This document shows, piece by piece, positions 8,404 through 22,800 of a stretch of 64,000 nt of DNA; within the stretch, counting starts at the first letter, position 1; the number at the start of each line of letters is the position of its first letter. Origin of the DNA: Hirudinaria manillensis. Lineage: Eukaryota > Annelida > Clitellata > Hirudinida > Hirudinidae. The position numbers and the translations under genes were made by a program. The DNA lies in assembly GCA_034509925.1 (NCBI GenBank), contig CM067527.1, positions 9,122,501-9,186,500 on the forward strand. The letters are read 5' to 3'. The notes beneath the pieces are model-generated. The model searched no databases, was not told the DNA's origin, and worked only from the letters and a program-made list of their open reading frames with translations.

Positions 8404-8894
8404 CTTTATAGTAATTGTTATCGAACTATAAATACTTTTTATGTTATAGGCTTAGGTTTATGGATTAAATTATATATATGTATAGTTAGTATTGTAGAAA
8501 TTCACGGTTTAATAGACACTGTACATATCGGCGATGAATATAACGTTACTATGACAACCTCATTAATTTTTTATTTATTTATTTAACATTGCTAATTTTT
8601 TAAATTTTGTTGCTTGAATAATTGTACAATCATATAATTTTAAGCGTATTTTACATTTGTTAAAATTAAGTGTATTAGATGTTTATGATTTGCTTGTTAC
8701 TAGTCGCCGCTTGGTTGGTTGTTGTGGCATGTGGGTGTAGTAAAGCCGTGTTGTGTGAGTTTCAGTATTCCAATTATTTCAAATTGTTTGTCCCGGAAGC
8801 TAAATTTCACTAGTTATATTTGACCGCTGATTTATAAAATTTATTATAGAATGAAAATAATGACTTTTTGGCTAAAAGTGAATATTCTTGCAGC
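8404..8894. promoter_or_regulatory. Probable bidirectional promoter with a TyrRS 5'-UTR exon
   Basis: This interval separates the minus-strand propeller gene start (8403) from the TyrRS ATG (8895), which are head-to-head. A GTGAGT donor at 8755 and a TTGCAG acceptor ending at 8893 suggest that a non-coding first TyrRS exon ends near 8754. The shared core promoter would then lie within about 8404-8700. I see no clear TATA box. This is inferred from gene layout and splice sites. Confidence 0.45.
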
Positions 8895-11800
8895 ATGGAG
8901 AACAAATTGCATCTTATTACTAGAAATCTCCAGGTTGGCTTTATTAGTAGCATTTTAATATATTGTGAGCCTGAAATCGTCAACATCTGATCGTAATGAT
9001 TATACTTGACCTATAAAGGAGGTTCTTGGAGAAAGTAGACTCACTGAGATCTTAAGTGAAAGGGATCTGAAAGTCTATTGGGGAACTGCAACAACAGGAA
9101 AGCCACACGTGGCATATTTTGTTCCCATGTGTAAAATAGCAGATCTGTTGGATGCCGGTTGTGAGGTAAGAAAAATTTAAGCTGGTATTTTCATAATGTG
9201 AAAGTTTGCCATTAATAAAAGCTATAGATCTTTAACTAATTATCGTTATCATTTGACTATTTGACTATTTGATGATAAAGATATGGGTTTCCATGTATGT
9301 TGTAAGAAAATTACTGAATGGGTATGCAATTAATTCAATTACTTATATCTTTTTTATTTTGTTATAAAATCTATGCTTTGAACATTTATATAATCATCAC
9401 TAGCTTTTCAACAAATTTCTTTATGAGTATATTTTTGGAAGTCATGAATTATTGGTCTAAATGCAAAACAGAAATTGGAGCAAATCATGAATGATCTCTG
9501 ACCATTTGTTAAATGATCCTGTTTTATATAATTGAACATGTAAAATTTCAAATTAGTATCTGAGTGTTGATTCTTACTCATTAAACATTATTCTAATTTC
9601 AGGTGACAATATTATTGGCAGATCTTCACGCAGTGCTTGATAATCTGAAGGCTTCATGGGAATTGGTTCAGTACAGGGCTCAATATTACGAGGAGGTCAT
9701 CAAGTCCACCCTCAGGTCGATTGGGGTTCCCCTCGAGAAACTCAAATTTGTCAGGGGCACATCCTACCAGCTTTCTGAGTAAGTGGTTAATTTATTGCAT
9801 GAGTTCATTGATTGGTTAGAATGGTGGATGGATTGATGAATTCATCTGCTCTGAGTTTCTCATTCTTTCTCCTGTGATGATGATGTGTTATCATCTTCGG
9901 GATGGATGAATCATTTTAAATCATGTCAGCTATATTTTATTACTAAAGTAACAAATTCATCTCAAAGGAAGATTGGCCAGTGTTATTAAGGCACATTGAA
10001 TTAACTATTGATATAGTTGTGATGAAATCTATGAATATTGATGATGTCCATGAATTGTTGCTCTTAAATGTGATGCAATGTTGTGTAATGCTGGTTCATT
10101 CACAGCTGAATCGTTTGGTTCTAAAAATAGCTTTTCTGAAATTAATTATTATAATGACTGAACTATGAAAGGGATGTTACAAAATTAAAAAGTGTGAATT
10201 CAAGGAATTTTATTTTTATATTAGTTTTGTTCTTGTTTTACTGTAATTTTTAAATTTTTATAATATACATTCTTAATAGCCAAAATAATTAATTGACTGC
10301 TTCCATCAATAATTATTTGTGCCGCACGTTTTTGAAGGAAATACACATCAGATGCTTATAAGTTGTCAACATTGGTGACGGAACACGATGCAAAGAAAGC
10401 AGGAGCTGAGGTTGTAAAACAAGTGGATGATGCTCTCCTCAGTGGTCTCATGTACCCTGGTCTTCAGGTCTGTTGGTTTTTGCCGATTTTTGAGTCAAAT
10501 GATAGATTTTATTTTATGGAAACATTGGTGAATTATTGCCCATCCAGTGAGATTAAGTGCATTTAAATTCAGGTTGCTTATAAAATAATATTAATTTATT
10601 AATTAATAAAACTTAATTAAAACTGTAATTATTTTGTTGTTGTCATGCAGGCACTTGATGAGGAACATTTGGATGTTGATGCCCAGTTTGGGGGAGTTGA
10701 CCAGAGGAAGATATTTGTTCTTGCAGAGAAAGTAAGCTTTTGATCAACTTGTGATGTGTCTTGAAAATATTTGTTCTTGCAGAGAAAGTAAGCTTTTGAT
10801 CAATTTGTGATGTGACTCCTTGAAATCAATTTAACAATTGTAATGCAGATATTTATGTGTCACAAACACACTGTTTTAATTGTATTGCATACTTTCTTTC
10901 CAGTACTTGCCAAAAATGGGATACAAAAAAAGGATCCATCTCATGAATCCCATGGGTTGGTTTATACTTTTAATCTGTTCATAAATTAGTATTCATGCTC
11001 TTTTTTAACATCTTTATGATTACTATTGTCATTATTTATCACCTTAAAAAGAAATATCACAACTTAATATGGTGAACAAAAAAAAACTTAATAAGTATGG
11101 TGACTAATTTTTACAGTGTCACGAATAGATTTGGTTGATAACCATTAACTTTCACAACATAATTTCTCTCCAGTGCCAGGACTTACAGGATCAAAAATGA
11201 GTTCATCTGAGGAGGATTCAAAGATTGATCTGCTTGACACTGCAGCTCAGGTTGAGAAAAAACTCAAGAATGCTTTCTGTGAGCCTGGAAATGTTGAGAA
11301 CAATGGCATCCTTTCTTTTGTGAAGACAGTTCTCTTTGCAGTTAGAAAGTTTAAAGGTTTTGCCTGCTTATTTATTTATTATTTATTTATTTATAATTTG
11401 GTCATCAAACAATATTGTAATAAGTAATATTATTTAATTAATACATAATATATATTATGTTATATGATTAGTTTGGACTGTATAAATTATTAATGGAAAT
11501 GTTTTGATGTTTCAGGAGTTTTTGTGATCAGCAGGCCAGAGGAATTAGGTGGACCAGTAACTTTTGAGAATTATGAATCTCTGGAAAAATCCTTTATAAA
11601 CCAAGAGATCCATCCTGGAGACTTAAAGGGTGCTGTGGAAAAATATCTCAATGAACTCCTTGAACCAATCAGAGCTGACTTTGCTGATCCTGAAAAGCAA
11701 AAACTGGTCCAGATGGCTTACCCTTCTCCTAAATCAGTTGATTCGAAATGTAAATATTACAAAATATTTGTTACTGATACATTTATTATATCATTTATTA

Positions 11801-14800
11801 TTGAATATTTTGGTTACATAAACAAATTGCACATATTTGGTCAGCAATTAAGTAATGATTTTGTGAATTTAAGAATTGTTATTATATAATTGATGCAACA
11901 ACATGTGAACATAATTTATTGAAAATATTGATTAATTAATATGTTGTTTAAAGCTTCAGTTCAGGATGAATCGATTTTGGAGGAGTCTTTACAGAGTAAC
12001 ACCTGTGTTGAGAAAAAATTGCAACTTATTAAGAAAAATCTTCAGGTTTTATTTAAATTTGGTTGCACTCAGTTGTGATGGTTTAAATTAAAACTGCTGT
12101 AGGACACAAGAAAGACATTTAATTATAATTCTGCTCACAGGAAGTACTTGGAGAGGAAAGGCTGATTGAGATCCTGAAAGAGAGGGATCTCAAAATCTAT
12201 TGGGGAACTGCAACAATAGGAAAGCCACACGTGGCATATTTTGTTCCCATCTGTAAAATAGCAGATCTGTTGGATGCCGGTTGTGAGGTTAGAAACGACA
12301 AAGGATTTACAAAACCTAACTTGACTGTAAATGAGTGCTTTGTTGACTCAATGTTGACATTTTGAATAGATTTTAAATACATACATATATATATATAAAA
12401 ATACTGTGATGATCAATCAAATGTTCAATATATTTGTTAACTGATGTGGTTATGTTGACTGGTCAATTTAAGCAAATATTTCATAAGTATAAAGAAATAA
12501 TATATATATATATATTTTTGTGGGAATTTGTTTTTGAACAATTGATCATAAACAAATGGCAATTAATGATTATTTGATATTTTTAATTGCATTTTGCTTT
12601 GTTATTGTTTGAAAAGATTTTAAATAATATTCCAATATATGGGTTTATTTCAATTTCAGGTCACAATTTTGATGGCAGATCTTCATGCTGTGCTTGACAA
12701 TCTGAAGGTTTCATGGGAACAGGCTCAGTACAGGGCTCAATATTACGAGGAGGTCATCAAGTCCACCCTCAGGTCAATTGGGGTTCCCCTCGAGAAACTC
12801 AAATTTGTCAGGGGCACATCCTACCAGCTTACTGAGTAAGCTTATTAATTAAGTTTTATTAGTTAAATTGTTTTATTGATCAAATGATTGACTGGTTAAT
12901 GATTCAATCCCACAATGCTTATTTTATTGCCTTGAATATTTTTAGAAGTTAAATTGTTTTATCATTATATCAATGTTGTTTCATACTAACCATTTATATA
13001 CAAATAAGTTAATCTCAGTACAGGGTACCTTACCATTCCAGAGTAAGCTGCTATATTGTTACTTGCAATTAATTGTCTTATTGTTTGAAGGAAGTACACG
13101 ATGGATGCGTACAAGTTGTCAACGTTGGTGACCGAACGTGATGCAAAGATAGCAGGAGCTGAGGTTGTAAAACAGGTGGATGAGGCACTCCTCAGTGGTC
13201 TCATGTACCCCGGTCTTCAGGTCTGTTGATTTCAGAGTCAACTGGCGGATTTTATTTAATTTGGTTTAAAAACATGCAACTTTCAAGCATTTTTATTTTA
13301 TTTTTTTGTAAGCTTGTATTATTTTGAAGCTGTTGTGCTTGATTGTATTAATTATTTTTTGTTTTTAATGTAAGAAGGAACAATTCTAGGTTCTGATCAA
13401 TTTGCAAACTTAAATTTCACCTTAACGAATTACTATTTTCAATTATCTATTAAAATGTTCTTGTTGTTCAGGCACTTGATGAAGAATACTTGGGAGTTGA
13501 TGCTCAGATTGGAGGATGTGATCAGAAGAAGATCTTTGAGTTTTCAGAGAAGGTAGCTTTTGATTGTGGTGCATCCTTAGATTCAGAGATTTTGTCAAAG
13601 CTTTTGAATTCATTACTTAACTGAAAAGATGAATACTTAATTACTACTGCTTAGTAGATAATGTGGATTGGATGGTCATATCATTATCTTTATCTACAGA
13701 ACTTGCCAAAGTTGGGATACAAAAAGAGAATCCATCTCATTAATCCCATGGGTAAGTTTAAAACTTAAATGTTATCAGGAATTATTGTTGATGTTCATTA
13801 TCACCATTTGTTATTATTATTATTATTACCTAAAATTCAATTATTAATTAGATTCGATTTTGTTACTTGTATGGAAGAGTAACTGATAACCATTGACAAC
13901 CAACAACACCAAACAATTTCTTTCCAGTGCCAGGACTTACAGGATCAAAAATGAGTTCATCTGAGGAGGATTCAAAGATTGATTTGCTTGACACTGCAGC
14001 TCAGGTTAAGAACAAACTCAAGAAGGCTTTCTGTGAGCCTGGAAATGTTGAGAACAACATCATTCTTTCTCTTGTGAAGTACATAATCTTCAACATAAGA
14101 AAGTTTAAAGGCATGTTTTCTTTTGTCAGTTAATGTATTGATTGATTGTTATGTTGCTATGACTTATATCATAATATAATAATAATAATAGTTAGTTGTT
14201 CTAGTATAAACAATTTTCAATTGTTATTTAAGAGTGGCTTGATGATGCTTTTAGACTATTGTGTGCTTGTTGGCTGCAGCTTTTTCCAACTGTAGAATTT
14301 TTATTTGTTACTGAAAATTATTGGATTTGATTTTTAAATTGTTGCAAAGCTATTTCCATTTCAAACTTCTTCTAAATATATAAATAATGTTAATTCCAAA
14401 ATATATTCGGTATTACAAATTTGGATTAGATATAATAATAATAATAACTTCAACTGACCTTTTAGGAGTTTTTGTGGTGTCCAGGCCTGAAAAGTTTGGT
14501 GGACCAGTAACTTTTGAGAACTATGAATCTCTTGAAAAATCCTTTGCAAACCAAGAGATCCATCCTGGAGACTTGAAGGGTGCTGTGGAAAAATATCTCA
14601 ATGAACTCCTTGAACCAATCAGAGCTGACTTTTCCAATCCTGAGAAGCAGAAACTCATACAATTGGCCTTTAATTCTTTGAAATCAGTCCAGGCAAAAAG
14701 TAAGGTTCACATGTGATTTTAGTTTATTGAATGACTGATTAATTATAAATCCATTTTATTTTTATGACTTTTTTTATGTGAATTTAGTGAAATATTTGTT

Positions 14801-16410
14801 TAAATTGTGCTTTTGTTCATTAATTTCTGAAATTTTTAATCAGGATTGTAAAAGTTGACGTAGTGATATTTAAACAAGATTTGTTAAAATTTTTAACATG
14901 GTAATTGTTATATTGTTGTAAGATGCACTTCAAGATGGTGATGATGTATGCCCTTCAGTTTTGGACCTGAGGATTGGAAGAATTGATGACATGAATGTGG
15001 TATGTTTTAGTTGTTAGGCTGAAGAGCCATTTTTATAATTATACATTTTCATAATTAAAATTAATTATAATATAATTATACATTTATATAATTAAAGAGT
15101 GAAAGTAACTAACAAATTCAAAATTTAAGGAATGTTTAGCATTATAGAACTTTATGTTCCAATCTTAGAAATACAAATGAAGCTGAAAATTTAAAGAGTA
15201 GTTTTTTTTTAAGAAGAAAATCTGTGTTGTGGTGCATTAATATGAAATATTAAATAAAATCTGTTAAATCATGCAGTAAGTTACATATAGTTACAGCATA
15301 TATATATATATATGTTATTATTGTATTTGTGATTTTCTTCTGCTAGCTTGTTGTAATTAATTAAAATCTGACATTTTACAAAAATAGTTTCATATGAAGA
15401 GTTTGACAGACATTTGTAAAATTATTAAGAATCTGACATCAACAATTCTTTGCAAATTACAGCATCCACAAATAAACAGCCACTACGTCATGTCTGTCAA
15501 CTTTGGCGACAAAGGAAATTCCCAAGCAGTATTGGGACTGGCTCATGTTCTAAAAGCTGAAGAGTTGAAGGGCCGTCTAGGAATATTCTTGTGCAATTTG
15601 ACACCAGTCACTCTTAAGGGTGTGGAATCTAAAGCCATGCTTCTCTGTGCCTTTGGAAAGTAATTTCAATTGATTTACATTTTGCTTCCTGTTATTTATT
15701 TAAATATTTATTTGTTTTTAAAACATTCATTGACCAACTCTACCTGCAATATAATTATATCCCGATCCTCAGTGATTTGGGTGGCTTGATTAATTAAAAT
15801 GTGCATTTCAGGTCCAAAGCAGTAGAGCTTCTCTCAGTTCCTGAAGCTTCAAAACCTGGTGACGAAGTTTTTGTGGACGGATTTTGTCAAAAGACTCCAT
15901 TCTCAGAATTAAAAAAGAAAGACTGGGAGAGACTTCAGGTAAAACACAGTTTAACAAACATTGATAAACAGTTGATAGGAGTTTATTGATTGTATAATCA
16001 CAAATGTTGGTGATGCCTAATGTCTTTGTCGAATCTCAACCTTTATTTGGCCACACTGCAGCTAGTTCCATACCCAGTATTTCTGAAATATAGCTATAGA
16101 ATTTTATTGCAACCTAAACTTAACAAATAATTGAAATAATAGTTAGGTGATCAAGCAATAAATAAATTTTTGAAAACAGATATTCCTAAACATTTATTTT
16201 GCTTGTTGGTGGCCTAAAGATCTCCAATAAACTTAGCAGCCCAATTATAAAATTTACTTCTGATATTCCACTCACATTCTTTGCACTTAACCTTTACAGG
16301 CTGACCTCAAAACCAACGAAGACCAGAACGTAATGTGGAGGACCACACCATTGGTGACAAAATTGGGTCCCATCAAGACCAAGCTGTTGAAGAATGTTCC
16401 GATAAAGTGA
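8895..16410 (+). CDS. YARS1: Tyrosyl-tRNA synthetase with two tandem catalytic modules and an EMAPII-like C-terminus (882 aa)
   Basis: Cytoplasmic class I TyrRS, which charges tRNA(Tyr). Exons: 8895-8933, 9019-9165, 9603-9778, 10338-10467, 10651-10731, 10904-10955, 11174-11356, 11516-11749, 11954-12045, 12141-12287, 12660-12835, 13091-13220, 13472-13552, 13700-13751, 13928-14110, 14466-14699, 14923-14999, 15463-15659, 15812-15938, 16300-16410. The total is 2649 nt, an exact multiple of three. Residues 1-347 form a full catalytic and anticodon module: [15 protein letters not shown] with His43, YPGLQALDE, DAQFGG, KMSSS at 216. Residues 348-378 are a linker. Residues 379-712 repeat the whole module, with His408 and KMSSS at 581; the seven exon lengths (147, 176, 130, 81, 52, 183, 234) are identical in both copies. 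Residues 713-882 are the EMAPII-like OB-fold tail seen in animal TyrRS ([21 protein letters not shown]). Animal TyrRS normally has one module (528 aa in human) and dimerises. Here a single chain could be a pseudo-dimer. The intron after exon 15 is GC-AG. Confidence 0.93.
10711..10814 (+). repeat. 56-bp-period direct repeat over an exon-intron boundary
   Basis: Forty-eight bases covering the end of TyrRS exon 5 and its donor (10711-10758) recur almost unchanged at 10767-10814. The second copy holds another GTAAGC donor. Using it would put an in-frame TGA from the retained first donor region into the mRNA, so only the first donor at 10732 yields full-length protein. Confidence 0.85.
11954..12045 (+). 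other. Junction exon linking the two TyrRS modules
   Basis: This 92-nt exon is in phase on both sides. Its 5' end resembles the start of exon 17, the exon leading into the EMAPII tail: the peptide SSVQDES compares with NALQDGD, and the bases after the acceptors are alike. Its 3' end resembles exon 1: [13 protein letters not shown] compares with [13 protein letters not shown]. It therefore looks like a fusion of the old linker exon with a copy of the first exon. It is the physical seam of the duplication. Confidence 0.75.
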
Positions 16411-16474: not shown

Positions 16475-16480
16475 AATAAA
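16475..16480 (+). promoter_or_regulatory. AATAAA poly(A) signal of TyrRS
   Basis: Canonical AATAAA 65 bp beyond the TyrRS TGA at 16408-16410, in the transcript orientation. Confidence 0.7.
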
Positions 16481-17203: not shown

Positions 17204-18049
17204 TTACTCCCTGCAGAGGTAATCTCCAATCATGCTGAAGAACTTGAATGAGGCACGCCAATTTTCATCCGAGCACTTCTTCAGAAATTCAGGGTAACGA
17301 GTGAATTTGTGGATGCAAAAGTAGGCAGCGGCCACGATATTCTGAACATTCTCCAGTGGAACGACTCGTGCAGATTCCACCAGGAATTGGAAGAAGTCGG
17401 CACATTTGTCCTCAATGATGCGGGACTGATCCAAGAAGTTTCCCATGTTTGAATTCTCTATGCTATCTTCGAGCTTATCAATTATTTTATTGTAGCAGAG
17501 GAGTATTTTATGGAGTACAAACACTGTAGCGGTGAGCCTCAACAGGTCAGAAACTGAGTCGTCACCTCAAGATTAATTTTTATTTGATTAACGTGGCTAA
17601 TTAAAGTTGCATTAAGATAATCATCTATGGGTGAAAATGAAACCAACCATATTTTGGCTGGAACTGGTTGCTGATTGTATTTTGAACTTCAGCTTTATTG
17701 AAATGGAGCATGGAATCCAGCTCATCAGTAAGCTCCCAATATGTGTAACCATTTGCTGAATCCTGATAATTCGTGGGCCGTTTTATAAAGTAATTTAATT
17801 GTAATTCATCCCACCTAATTTTAATTTGTTAGCTAATTTGATAAAAAAAAAACACACTTTCTGCATTAGTTTGAACAAATCATCCAAGATTGCCTTTGGA
17901 TCTTAAACAAAGAAAGATGAACCATTTAGGTAATAATGAAGAAAATATGGAAGAAGCATTCAGACAAACAGACATCAATATTGAAATTAATAACCTGCTG
18001 GATAGTAAACGTAAGAAGTTTGCAGATCTTCAGCCTTTTCGCCCTCCAT
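17204..18049 (-). CDS. Free-standing PARP4-type vault-interaction (INT) domain protein, 191 aa
   Basis: Exons: 18049-17995, 17901-17858, 17762-17648 and 17565-17204 (55, 44, 115 and 362 nt; 576 in total). Exons 2 and 3 have exactly the lengths and phases of the matching exons of the neighbouring PARP4 gene (21253-21210 and 20668-20554). The protein aligns with the extreme C-terminus of PARP4, the region that binds major vault protein and targets cargo to vault particles in vertebrates. Compare GYTYWELTDELDSML here with the human DGFWKLTPELGLIL, followed by a long helical stretch (LLRLTATVFVLHKI) and a terminal YPEFLKKCSDENW segment like the human YPSICPRLELGNDW. The start Met (MEGEKAEDLQTS) replaces everything upstream: there is no BRCT, PARP, VIT or vWA part. 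It is probably a small vault-binding adaptor or competitor made by tandem duplication of the PARP4 3' exons. The function is inferred. An upstream in-frame stop lies a few codons before the Met. Confidence 0.72.
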
Positions 18050-19859
18050 TTTACTGAAACAACACCTCCTGTACGAGTAATGTGAAGCTCTAGTCTCCAG
18101 ACAAGGCCGTCCTCCGCCTACGCTTATTATGATGCAGACAAAGATTTGGCGGTTAATGTTAGCGCTCTAATTATCAAAGGCAACTCGGTTTTTATTTTAA
18201 ATCAATTACCTACAATTAAAGGAACGTCAACTGCAAAACTGCTCAGTATGCACCAATCCAGCAAAACTCCAGCAAGACACGAACAAACAGGCAACAGCGA
18301 CAATGATTCACTGACGTTTCTGCAAAGGCTAAAAGCAGATCATCGTCGCAGAAAAATTGAGTTGCAGACGATCAAAGTTAAAAATTATTCTCTACATTAC
18401 TTAACATGGTTAATTGTTAAATCATTTAATTAATTAGTAACTCCATTCTAGTAAACATTCCTTTGAATAGTCGTGGATTCTTTTCAAATTGGTAACCAAT
18501 TCTAGAATAAATCGATTTTTGCCTAGTTTGGAGATATATCAGTCAGAAAATATTTCAAAGTGCTAAGTATACTGTATAAATGGGAACATAATTAACATAG
18601 CACATTAACGATGGCCAGTGATATGCGGAGAAAAGGGTCATAAAAGAGCATATCATTTCGGCTTTCCGTAGGGGGACAAAACAGATCTCATACTTTTCAT
18701 CAATAGTCAGGGAAGAGACAAAACCCGCTTGGGGAGGTGGAAGAGTACGATTGTCCTTAAAGGAGGTTGAAAATTTATTTCGGAGGAATTTGACGTCCTT
18801 CAAAAATGATTCCACTCGTGTGAAGACGCTCTGCCATTACTTGACAGCTATTGAATTTTATTAGCTTTTAGGGTGTGCTCCATTGAAACTTTCGCATAAC
18901 ATTAGTCATAGAAAGCAAACAGCGCGATAATGGGGCGTATCCAGCTCCAAACGGAAGGGGAGCGGAGCAAATTTTGTTTCGAGGAGGAGAGTTCGTACGC
19001 ATTATATGCAAAACGAAGTGATAAACTGATTGAAAGTAAACGTCATTTATTAAGAAAATACTTTGAACAGAATTGTTGCAAATTTATTCCACTAATTACT
19101 CAAGCCCATTGACGATTAGCATGGCTGACCCATTTAATCAATAATCATGTTTCTTAGCTATATTTTAATTCTGCCAATCGGGCTAAACGAACGGTCGCTG
19201 TGCTGACAATAAAGCAGTGCCTCAAAAGCAATCTCGGCAGCGCCTATCTAAGGACACGTTTCACTACCACATGCTCCGGTGGCATATTTAGGAGAGAGGA
19301 GGGAGGACCATTGGCATTATTAAAAAAAAAACAATTTTTTGAGCTTGGCGATTAGGGAGGCAAATTCACCTTTAATTTGAATATTTTCACACAGTTATTT
19401 CTGATCTGGTCCCTACCATTGTTAAAGTCTTCGCGATTAATTTTTTGGGCCTAATTAAATATTTAAATTTAATTAAGCAAAGCTAAAATTTTCTCCTTCT
19501 CATATTTGCTTATATTTTTTTTCGTTTTTGGCGTTTGGATGTTTTTACGAGGCAAAAAATTCAAGTTTTAAAATAAGGAGCCTTCCCACCCCCAAGTCTC
19601 TGCCTCCAAAGCTGAGATTCCCCGATAAGTCAATTAGTTGCACTATTCAATGGGTTTAAGGATGATAAGCAATAATATTTTTATATTATAAAAAGCATCA
19701 TATTTGATATTTAAAGTCTTGGACAATGTTTCATCACCATTTCAATATGGTTATTAATCATTCACATAATATAAGCAAGCAGTTTCAAAATGAAAGCTAA
19801 ACAATCACACATAATCCAAGAGATTATTCATATAATCAAAAAATAAAGCCTCATTATCA
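18050..19859. other. Spacer between the INT-only gene and PARP4
   Basis: I support no gene in this 1.8 kb. A plus-strand frame with Met at 18248 reads MHQSSKTPARHEQTGNSDND and runs to a possible donor at 18380, so it could be an orphan first exon. I found no partner exon. The rest holds only short, unconvincing frames. Confidence 0.4.
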
Positions 19860-22800
19860 TCACTCAAGTAATACATAAATTTCCTCATTGGATTCTATAA
19901 ATCTCATGATTTCGTCACATAAAGGATATTTGAAATCTTTAATAAAATTCGGATATTTTGAAATCATATCTATGCAGAAGTACAAAGCAGCCATTAAATC
20001 CTGCATCTCTTTCAAGGAGAAGTACTGCATAATTAGTTTGATATCTGTTTCCTTGATACTGGTCCCGATTATTGCAAACACCATCAAAGTAGCAAAGAAT
20101 CTGGCAAGGTCCATGACATTCCCATCATTTTCAACTGTTTCATACAATTATAAAAAAATTGTTTTTGTATTGATATGGCAATACTAAATTATTCTTTAAC
20201 ATTTAAATATTTGCTATTGTTAAATACTTGAGTTACTTGTTAAAATAAAGTAATTTTCATTGTGTAAATTGTATTTTGGCTTGTTATGATCTTAAAATGA
20301 CTAACATTGACTAAAATAACATTATATAACAGTTAGAAAAAAAACAGCAATGTAGAAGACAAATATAGAAATTAATCATAAGAAAAAAGCTTATAAGCAC
20401 TATTATTTGGATGGAACAATGAAAAATAAATATAATTAATTAACATAAACCAATAGATACTAAGTATCTTTGTACATAACTGGGTTTTTTGACAAAACAT
20501 TAAATTTAACTTTTTAAAAGAAAATATCAACAAATGACAACGCGATAATTTACCGCATATATGAGAGAACTGGCCAACAATGAGTTGCTTAATGAGGAGG
20601 CTGTTGATGCCAAACAAGGCTCCAAGATCTTCATTCAACTCCCAAAACATGTAACCAGTATCCTCGTCCTGAGATGAGGTTCAAAGAAATTTTGAGCAAC
20701 AACATAATACAAATATTTTTGTTTTTAACAACATTTTTCTAAATGATTGCACGTACAAATTTTTGTGCAATATGGTGAAATATACACTAGATTTACAGAA
20801 TTATCGAATTTATTGCACTGAAATCATTATTTTGTGAGAATTTCACAACAAACTTGAAATACACAAAATTATGTTGATCAGCCCCAGATAAAAGATAACT
20901 TTGGAAATTCTGTTATTGTTATTATATTATGTTATTCTGTTATAATTATTTATATATATATATATAAAATATATAAATATTAACTACAGTAAAACCTGCA
21001 AATAAGGGCACCTGAGAATAGGGTAAAACCTGACTTAAGGGCCATTTTTCTAGGAACCGGTTTTACATTTGTTTAACATTTGACACCTGATAAAAGGGAC
21101 AACCTCCTCATGGGGACACTATTGTCATGCAAAATTTAGCAGGTCCCTATAGGCAGATTTTACTGCATTTATATTAAGTTTGATGACATTTAATTAGATT
21201 GGAATCTACCTTCTGAAGTAAAGCTGTCAATTTGCCTCTGATCTCAGGAAATGCTGAAATTGATTTTGTTAAAGCTTAAAGCATTACTATGAGATGAGCA
21301 ACCAGTAATAAAGACAAATTGCATTACTAGATTCTCAAATTTTTATAATTAGATCATTTTAAAAATAAACTTATAGCTTATACTTTTTGCCATATCCTCT
21401 ATGTTGATTTCTTTCTCTTGTTGGTTTTGTTCACAAGTTAATTTTTGTGGTAGTTCTTGAAATAACTTTTGCTGTAATCCTTGAATAAATGCAATCAAAG
21501 ATAAAAATTTCATGGAATTATGTCGAAATTCATTTAATTTCAATTTAATCTGTTTTACTAAGCACCAGATTGTTGCAAACACCATCAGAGTAGCAAAAAT
21601 TCTGGCAAGGTCCATGACATTTCCTTATCATTTCCATATCATTGAAATTGTTGTAGAGCCATTGTAAATCACAGCTAAGGAAGCCTTTTGCTGAGGCAGC
21701 CTTAGCCTCTCAAGGCATCAGATCACAATAAAATCATCATCATCATCATCATCCATACACAAACAATTCACAAATAATTCAAATATGTTGGTATCTAAGG
21801 AAAGTCTGAGGATAAGATCAAGTTATTTAGTGCCTCAGAGCGGTGAATGAGACAAAGCCCAGTATTGATTATCATTGAATCTTTACAATGTTGACTCAAA
21901 ACATTATCCTCACTTGATGATCTAACTGCAATTCCATCTGCTTGAAGCGCTAAAGAAAGAAATCAATTAGATACAAATAAAATATCCAAAATAATTATAT
22001 CGTTGAGTGGCAATTTTTGATAAAAACAAGTGAATAGCAAATTTCATGAAAGTTTTCTATTGATTATGTCTCGTACAATGTCATGTTAAACATTGGCAAC
22101 TTGGCTCAGAACATTATCCTCACCTGGTGATCCAAACTTAATTGATTTTACTGGCACCTCTAAATGAAGAAATTAATTCGATGCTAATAGATAAATCCAA
22201 AATATTGTTTTTGGTACATAAAAACAAGTCTCTAGCAAATTTCATTGAAGCCATCTTGTTGATTATGGCTTGTACAATGTCATGCTAAACATTGGCAACT
22301 TGACTCAAAACAATATTCTTACCTGATGATCGAAGTGAAACTTTTACTGGAACCTCTAAATGAAGAAATTAATTAGATATAAACAAATAAATCAAAAATA
22401 ATGGTTTTATTGTGTTTTAATTATGTTTTAATCTTTAATATGTACAAACAAGCCACGTCACTAGGGAATCATTAAATTGAAGTTACCTTCTTGAATCTTT
22501 GCTGAACATATTAAATCATCAGAATCAGAACTCGACATTACTAAATTAGCAGATGCTAATTGACAATACATTGATTGCTGGTGTTTGAATACTGGATGTG
22601 GTGGCTTTGGTAGTTGTGGTTTCAAGGGAGGTGGTGGTGGTACTAGTCTTGAAGGTGGTGGTGGTACTAGTCCTGAAGGATGTGGTGGCTGTGGTGGTTG
22701 TAGTCTTGAAGGAGGTGGTGGTGGTGGTTGTAATCTTGAAGGAGCTGGTGGTTTAGAAGTGGTCGCTAAAATAAAATGAAATAAATGCAATAAGTGAAAG

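Follow-up and report, generated by a model that had tools for sequence, protein, structure and literature searches.

A predicted double-length tyrosyl-tRNA synthetase in the leech Hirudinaria manillensis with complementary residue changes in its two modules

The stretch of DNA analysed here (the window: 64,000 nucleotides of contig CM067527.1 of the leech Hirudinaria manillensis, assembly GCA_034509925.1) carries at positions 8895..16410 a gene for a double-length tyrosyl-tRNA synthetase (TyrRS). Twenty exons on the plus strand were rebuilt from the window sequence; their phases agree throughout, and the resulting gene model has a frame of 882 residues with one terminal stop, as an earlier, sequence-only reading of this DNA had stated. 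The encoded chain consists of a first TyrRS module, a short linker, a second TyrRS module and one EMAPII-like tail. The features are as follows (window coordinates; residue positions in human TyrRS numbering; basis of the assignment in brackets):

8895..11749, + strand: module 1, exons 1-8, residues 1-347 of the chain, class Ic TyrRS catalytic and anticodon-binding domains (exon model, homology)
9094..9096, + strand: ACA, Thr of module 1 at position 45, the conserved Ser/Thr of the HIGH-like loop (alignment)
11542..11547, + strand: GAA TTA, Glu-Leu of module 1 at positions 282-283, mostly Lys and an aromatic residue in the homologs (the position of Methanocaldococcus jannaschii Phe261; alignment)
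11941..11943, + strand: in-frame ATG inside intron 8, usable as an internal start only with transcription from within this intron or with its retention
11954..12045, + strand: exon 9, a chimeric linker exon with an exon 17-like acceptor and 5' end and the last 39 nucleotides homologous to exon 1 (sequence alignment)
12141..14699, + strand: module 2, exons 10-16, second TyrRS catalytic and anticodon-binding unit (exon model, homology, NCBIfam profile)
12216..12218, + strand: ATA, Ile of module 2 at position 45 (alignment)
13526..13528, + strand: AAG, Lys of module 2 at position 189 (alignment)
14111..14465, + strand: GC-AG intron 15, between exons 15 and 16 (exon model)
14492..14497, + strand: AAG TTT, Lys-Phe of module 2 at positions 282-283, anticodon-pocket residues retained (alignment)
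14923..16410, + strand: exons 17-20, the single EMAPII-like tRNA_bind tail (Pfam residues 728-821) and the stop codon (exon model, Pfam)

All 19 introns end in AG; 18 start with GT and intron 15 with GC (its module 1 counterpart, intron 7, starts with GT). An AATAAA is present 3' of the final stop at position 16475. At the other end of the gene, an acceptor-like TTCTTGCAG (window 8885-8894) lies one base before the start codon, and exon 1 may follow an intron of the 5' untranslated region. Exons 2-8 and 10-16 are equal in length pair by pair (147, 176, 130, 81, 52, 183 and 234 nucleotides) with 78-93% DNA identity per exon, and the two modules are 85% identical. The motifs PHVAY, YPGLQALDE, DAQ and KMSSS, which the sequence-only reading had ascribed to both modules, are indeed present in each. 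Scored alone with the NCBIfam tyrosine--tRNA ligase profile (cut-off 220 bits), module 1 reached 305.2 and module 2 292.2 bits; Pfam recognized two tRNA-synt_1b stretches and one tRNA_bind stretch on the joined chain. Among solved structures, the best match of module 1 was human cytosolic TyrRS (1n3l, approximately 529 bits; module 2, approximately 496 bits), that of the tail the C-terminal domain of human TyrRS (1ntg). Both modules are thus class Ic cores with PHVAY- and KMSSS-type motifs, and the EMAPII-like C-terminal domain (PF01588, residues 728-821) is that of a YARS1-type cytosolic enzyme: module 1 is 71% identical to human YARS1 over the core (1n3l; tail, 1ntg), and the order of catalytic, anticodon-binding and EMAPII-like domains is the same. 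Whereas human YARS1 has one core per chain and acts as a homodimer, two cores share one tail in the leech gene model; at the gene level, two TyrRS units in one reading frame, the layout of a covalent dimer and a single EMAPII tail are therefore present as first proposed for this animal.

Exon 9 is a chimera in which the acceptor and 5' end resemble the first EMAPII exon (exon 17) and the 3' end resembles exon 1 (similarities were assessed by alignment score against 500 dinucleotide shuffles). The last 60 nucleotides of intron 8 together with the first 30 nucleotides of exon 9 aligned with their intron 16/exon 17 equivalents with a score of 56, which none of the 500 shuffles reached (mean 33.1, standard deviation 5.3); for the whole introns 8 and 16 the score was reached by 2 of 500 shuffles, and the first 53 nucleotides of exons 9 and 17 alone showed a weaker likeness (34 of 500). 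The last 39 nucleotides of exon 9 match exon 1 at 31 positions, with GTT at the place of the exon 1 ATG, i.e. the old start codon has been replaced. A copy in exon 9 of the region upstream of exon 1 received no support (score reached by 136 of 500 shuffles), and introns 1 and 9 showed no similarity (415 of 500). Of the 31 linker residues counted in the sequence-only reading, the last 13 are homologous to exon 1; the linker as such exists, with a true length of about 18 residues. Because exon 9 is chimeric, the gene was probably made in one step by a single in-frame tandem duplication of a block whose ends lay shortly upstream of exon 1 and at the beginning of exon 17. Such an event would fuse the first part of the EMAPII linker exon in frame with exon 1, with no recognisable promoter at the junction and no EMAPII exons in the first copy.

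Between the modules, about 0.09 non-synonymous (dN) and 0.30-0.36 synonymous (dS; three methods) substitutions per site were estimated (dN/dS approximately 0.25-0.3), which argues for a duplication that is not very recent and for purifying selection on the coding sequence. The paired introns are unequal in length and diverged far more than the exons, yet six of eight pairs (all except introns 1/9 and 7/15) outscored the best of 20 shuffles, a pattern expected of an older tandem duplication. Recent gene conversion between the modules was considered and rejected: the longest run without a synonymous difference comprised 28 codons (p = 0.16), 49 of 280 degenerate codons for the same residue differed between the modules, and the synonymous differences were not significantly clustered.

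The assembly (148.4 Mb, 23 contigs) was searched for further synthetases. With the module 1 core as query, the protein search of the genome gave 12 matches, all of them in the double gene (six per module). PF00579 gave nine, four of which are at the double-TyrRS locus; the other five, named by reading their motifs, belong to a cytosolic tryptophanyl-tRNA synthetase (TrpRS; contig C10, one open frame), a mitochondrial-type TyrRS (two matches, C2, 6.19 Mb) and a mitochondrial-type TrpRS (two matches, C5). PF01588 matched three times, once at the double-TyrRS locus and twice, close together, on C3. A second, ordinary cytosolic TyrRS was not found among the best-scoring candidates in the 148-Mb assembly, where a copy may have been missed or be absent through incomplete assembly; the double gene is apparently the sole cytosolic TyrRS of the animal.

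For the comparison of residues, both modules were aligned with 48 homologs, namely the human and yeast enzymes, 17 prokaryotic loci (confirmed out of 96 pattern matches; according to their titles 15 archaeal bins of Woesearchaeota, Micrarchaeota, Nanoarchaeia or unnamed archaea, one Lokiarchaeota and one Portnoybacteria) and 29 loci from the phylum sample of the Lokiarchaeota genome. In the latter sample 74 of 79 genomes matched and 30 loci were returned, one of which was left out as a repeat of the Lokiarchaeota genome; the longest open frame across the middle of each locus was taken, and two or three loci are gapped at the counted columns. At position 45, module 2 has Ile, whereas all 45 readable homologs have Thr (32) or Ser (13; three gaps); a Ser/Thr was also read by eye at the equivalent place of the other three class Ic enzymes of the leech genome. 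Position 189 is Lys in module 2 and Arg in 46 of 46 readable homologs (two gaps), and position 147 is Ile in module 2 and Lys, Arg or His in 46 of 46; module 1 has retained Thr45, Arg189 and Lys147. The anticodon domain presents the converse picture: module 1 has Leu at position 283, which is Phe, Tyr or Trp in 44 of 45 readable homologs and His in the remaining one, and Glu at position 282, where the homologs have Lys (41), Arg (one), Gln (two) or Glu (one), whereas module 2 has Lys-Phe at these two positions. His305, Pro306 and Asp308 are found in both modules.

In order that residues were not hand-picked, every column with at least 97% class conservation was scanned. Over all 48 homologs this applied to 54 columns (38 in the catalytic, 16 in the anticodon domain); departures were confined to module 1 at 283 and to module 2 at 45 and 90, and were shared by the two modules at 133 and 197. 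When the set was restricted to the 19 nearer homologs, 116 columns qualified (88 and 28, respectively), with departures of module 1 only at 131 and 283, of module 2 only at 45, 90, 183 and 259, and of both modules at 79, 104, 133 and 159. When identical residues were demanded, 25 columns were conserved in all 48 homologs, the sole departure being that of module 2 at 189; in the near set (64 columns) three departures were confined to module 2 (45, 189 and 341) and none to module 1. Relative to human TyrRS, 24 derived changes fall to module 2 and 10 to module 1 (sign test, p = 0.024). Since some residues without variation among the homologs are changed in module 2, the retention of motifs does not equal catalytic completeness; the two complete catalytic modules of the sequence-only reading have become doubtful, and two equal active sites are not supported, in view of Ile45 and Lys189 in module 2 and Leu283 in module 1.

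The changed positions have counterparts in well-studied enzymes. Thr40 of Bacillus stearothermophilus TyrRS is a transition-state residue together with His45, and Phe296 and Asp321 of the yeast enzyme make anticodon contacts. Human Thr45 was matched by eye to this Thr40 and to M. jannaschii Ser38 through the pattern G-x-x-[P/T]-[S/T]; the bacterial numbering was counted from the alignment (threonine of DPTA = 40), the archaeal one from printed alignments (Phe of EKF-GG = Phe261, HPMD = His283-Asp286, Ser of EPSG = Ser38). According to the excerpts of the literature on which this and the following comparisons draw, His45 is named as catalytic together with the stretch PTADSLHIGHL (PMC1950313), the anticodon recognition pocket of M. 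jannaschii TyrRS is formed by Phe261, His283, Met285 and Asp286 (PMC6681230), F261S/D286E variants serve to charge tRNA with altered anticodon (PMC8440579), and tRNA-Tyr lies across both TyrRS subunits (PMC8319005).

With moderate confidence, we interpret the leech enzyme as a single-chain, intramolecular pseudo-dimer that would be the sole cytosolic TyrRS, charge tRNA-Tyr at module 1 and read the anticodon with module 2. The 882-residue chain, if translated as one, would fold with its two halves paired; these would then have diverged, module 1 keeping the checked catalytic residues and lacking the aromatic residue that stacks on the anticodon, module 2 keeping the anticodon residues and lacking the Ser/Thr and the Arg of the catalytic centre, presumably with loss of its activity. 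As tRNA-Tyr lies across both subunits, one of two binding modes would stay intact, i.e. the one with the acceptor end in module 1 and the anticodon on module 2, where the adjoining EMAPII tail would help to hold the tRNA; the opposite mode would be damaged at both ends. Each chain would therefore probably work with one active site.

A number of observations weigh against this interpretation. The complementary split rests on few residues, and three departures do not fit a perfect one: module 1 departs alone once in the catalytic domain (131 to Ser, in comparison with the near homologs), and module 2 has changes in the anticodon domain, too (Gly259 to Ile, with Gly/Ala in 18 of 18 readable near homologs, and Tyr341 to Phe). 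For the catalytic domain alone, the ratio of derived changes is 15:6 (module 2:module 1; p = 0.078), and the by-domain contrast of the module with the rarer residue is not significant (19:8 versus 9:10; Fisher's test, p = 0.14). Module 2 has retained PHVAY and KMSSS, its Ile45 is one base change away, and the exchange of Arg for Lys at 189 is conservative and was flagged only when identical residues were demanded. In addition, the anticodon is only weakly involved in tyrosine identity in M. jannaschii (PMC6681230), for which A73 and C1-G72 are stressed elsewhere (PMC9976931); less weight therefore falls on Leu283 of module 1, and the loss of the Phe261 counterpart may cost little.

The retained motifs could also belong to a symmetric covalent dimer in which both modules are fully active and two sites work, as put forward in the sequence-only reading and as suggested for Arabidopsis At1g28350. 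Besides PHVAY, YPGLQALDE and KMSSS in both halves, the score of module 2 above the NCBIfam cut-off and the dN/dS of approximately 0.25-0.3 between the modules agree with such an enzyme; we nevertheless regard it as unlikely, since Ile45 and Lys189 of module 2 occupy invariant positions and Leu283 of module 1 lies in the anticodon pocket.

Alternatively, the locus might give rise to two proteins that pair as a heterodimer, module 1 alone and, by means of an intron 8 promoter, a product of module 2 plus the EMAPII tail. The ATG at 11941, which is in frame into exon 9 and permits an internal start, speaks for this arrangement and against a single chain; furthermore, read-through from exon 8 into intron 8 meets a stop, and one ATTAAA at 12087 (intron 9) is possibly a weak poly(A) signal. 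On the other hand, the acceptor and entry phase of exon 9 are like those of exon 17, the old start codon now reads GTT, the region upstream of exon 1 is not recognized in exon 9, and AATAAA is missing from 11750-12140, whereas it is present after the stop codon at 16475. The two transcripts that the sequence-only reading had left as an alternative have become less likely because nothing in the duplicated block points to a copied promoter, although the in-frame ATG retains some weight in their favor; on balance, the two-protein arrangement appears distinctly unlikely.

An assembly artefact that joined two haplotypes or collapsed copies into a double gene is highly improbable, as the paired introns are unequal in length and far more diverged than the exons and than expected of alleles, exon 9 is chimeric, coding and in phase, and PF01588 matches only once at the locus. 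Even less credible is a non-translational TyrRS-like protein, e.g. a secreted cytokine: cytokine forms of EMAPII-like tails do occur in vertebrates, but no other cytosolic-type TyrRS was found in the assembly, and module 1 has retained the conserved catalytic residues that were checked.

The single-chain pseudo-dimer has its closest parallel in the double-length TyrRS of trypanosomatids (Leishmania major, PDB 3p0h; Trypanosoma brucei), to which the leech gene had been likened from the start; the comparison is apt, as two TyrRS units are present in one chain, and the proposed division between catalysis and anticodon would be the same, in the same N-to-C order. The N-unit of the trypanosomatid enzyme is catalytic and the C-unit is catalytically degenerate and anticodon-binding, the protein being intrinsically asymmetric (PMC8319005, PMC5370408). 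There, KMSKS is no longer present in the C-unit (ARAVL), and the anticodon domain of the N-unit is affected by a deletion of six residues, whereas the leech modules show single-residue changes; unlike the trypanosomatid enzyme, the leech modules are 85% identical, bear an EMAPII tail and are encoded by a 20-exon animal gene. The scores of the leech chain (approximately 529 bits versus human TyrRS and 103 versus the Leishmania enzyme) argue for an independent fusion. Arabidopsis thaliana At1g28350 is likewise a fused double TyrRS with HIGH- and KMSK-type motifs in each half (PMC9437257, PMC7564348); it is listed as a cytosolic copy beside At2g33840, whereas no cytosolic-type TyrRS other than the double gene was found in the leech, and each leech half, unlike those of At1g28350, bears a complementary lesion. 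The wider proposal, i.e. that one intragenic duplication with complementary loss (of anticodon reading in the first half, of catalysis in the second) turned the only cytosolic TyrRS into an obligate one-site pseudo-dimer, as an independent, earlier-stage repeat of the trypanosomatid design with point changes only, is in our judgement evenly balanced between right and wrong.

No animal double-length TyrRS emerged from the searches made in one literature collection for double-length or pseudo-dimeric TyrRS, fused or tandemly duplicated metazoan TyrRS, leech synthetases and annelid TyrRS duplication, as judged by titles and the beginnings of abstracts. Double-length TyrRS is a known kind of enzyme; what would be new is an animal representative that bears an EMAPII tail, shows complementary changes at an early stage and is the only cytosolic TyrRS found. 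Among giant viruses, 28 pattern matches in viral contigs yielded no confirmed relative. In bins of Woesearchaeota, Micrarchaeota and other archaea, Lokiarchaeota and Portnoybacteria (L030-L046), TyrRS shared 44-65% of its residues with the animal enzyme, a seemingly high value for prokaryotes that might reflect transfer or a common ancestry of this type of TyrRS.

Several observations concern other parts of the window and the genome. Downstream of the synthetase, three minus-strand open frames (17207-17566, 19863-20147 and 21352-21624; window 17207-21624) are related by eye and resemble a small tandem family; at 53500-54950 (+ strand), reverse-transcriptase-like fragments in several frames probably represent, likewise by eye, a broken retrotransposon of the type without long terminal repeats. 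A hirudin-family Pfam match on contig C4 (E = 5.8e-6, 33.9 bits versus a cut-off of 25) is partial (26 of 64 positions) with one stop codon inside; together with the mitochondrial gene order given below, it agrees with a leech as the source. The mitochondrial contig reads with code 5: its cox1 match contains nine TGA codons, and six AGR codons stand, by eye, at expected Ser positions. The readable genes of this partly masked contig lie on one strand in the order cox1-cox2-atp8-cox3-nad6-cob ... nad4 ... nad1-nad3-nad2, which is that of annelids. A full-length cox1 match with nine in-frame TGA and a score equal to that of the mitochondrial copy (L022, G000:C23:31-1371) is located on C9 (L021, G000:C9:3026446-3027786) and is explained either by a recent transfer of mitochondrial DNA to the nucleus or by a join made during assembly.

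Should the predicted chain be produced, a single polypeptide has taken the place of an essential homodimer in this animal, and apparently no second copy stands behind it. The complementary changes, few as they are, flag residues that matter and make the need for both TyrRS active sites directly testable; if the interpretation is true, the leech enzyme is a natural experiment showing that one active site per TyrRS dimer suffices. The stoichiometry of the EMAPII domain would be altered as well, a point of relevance to the biology of the secreted fragments of animal TyrRS. Two such outcomes, one in trypanosomatids and one in an annelid, would suggest that this is the course which duplicated TyrRS tends to take.

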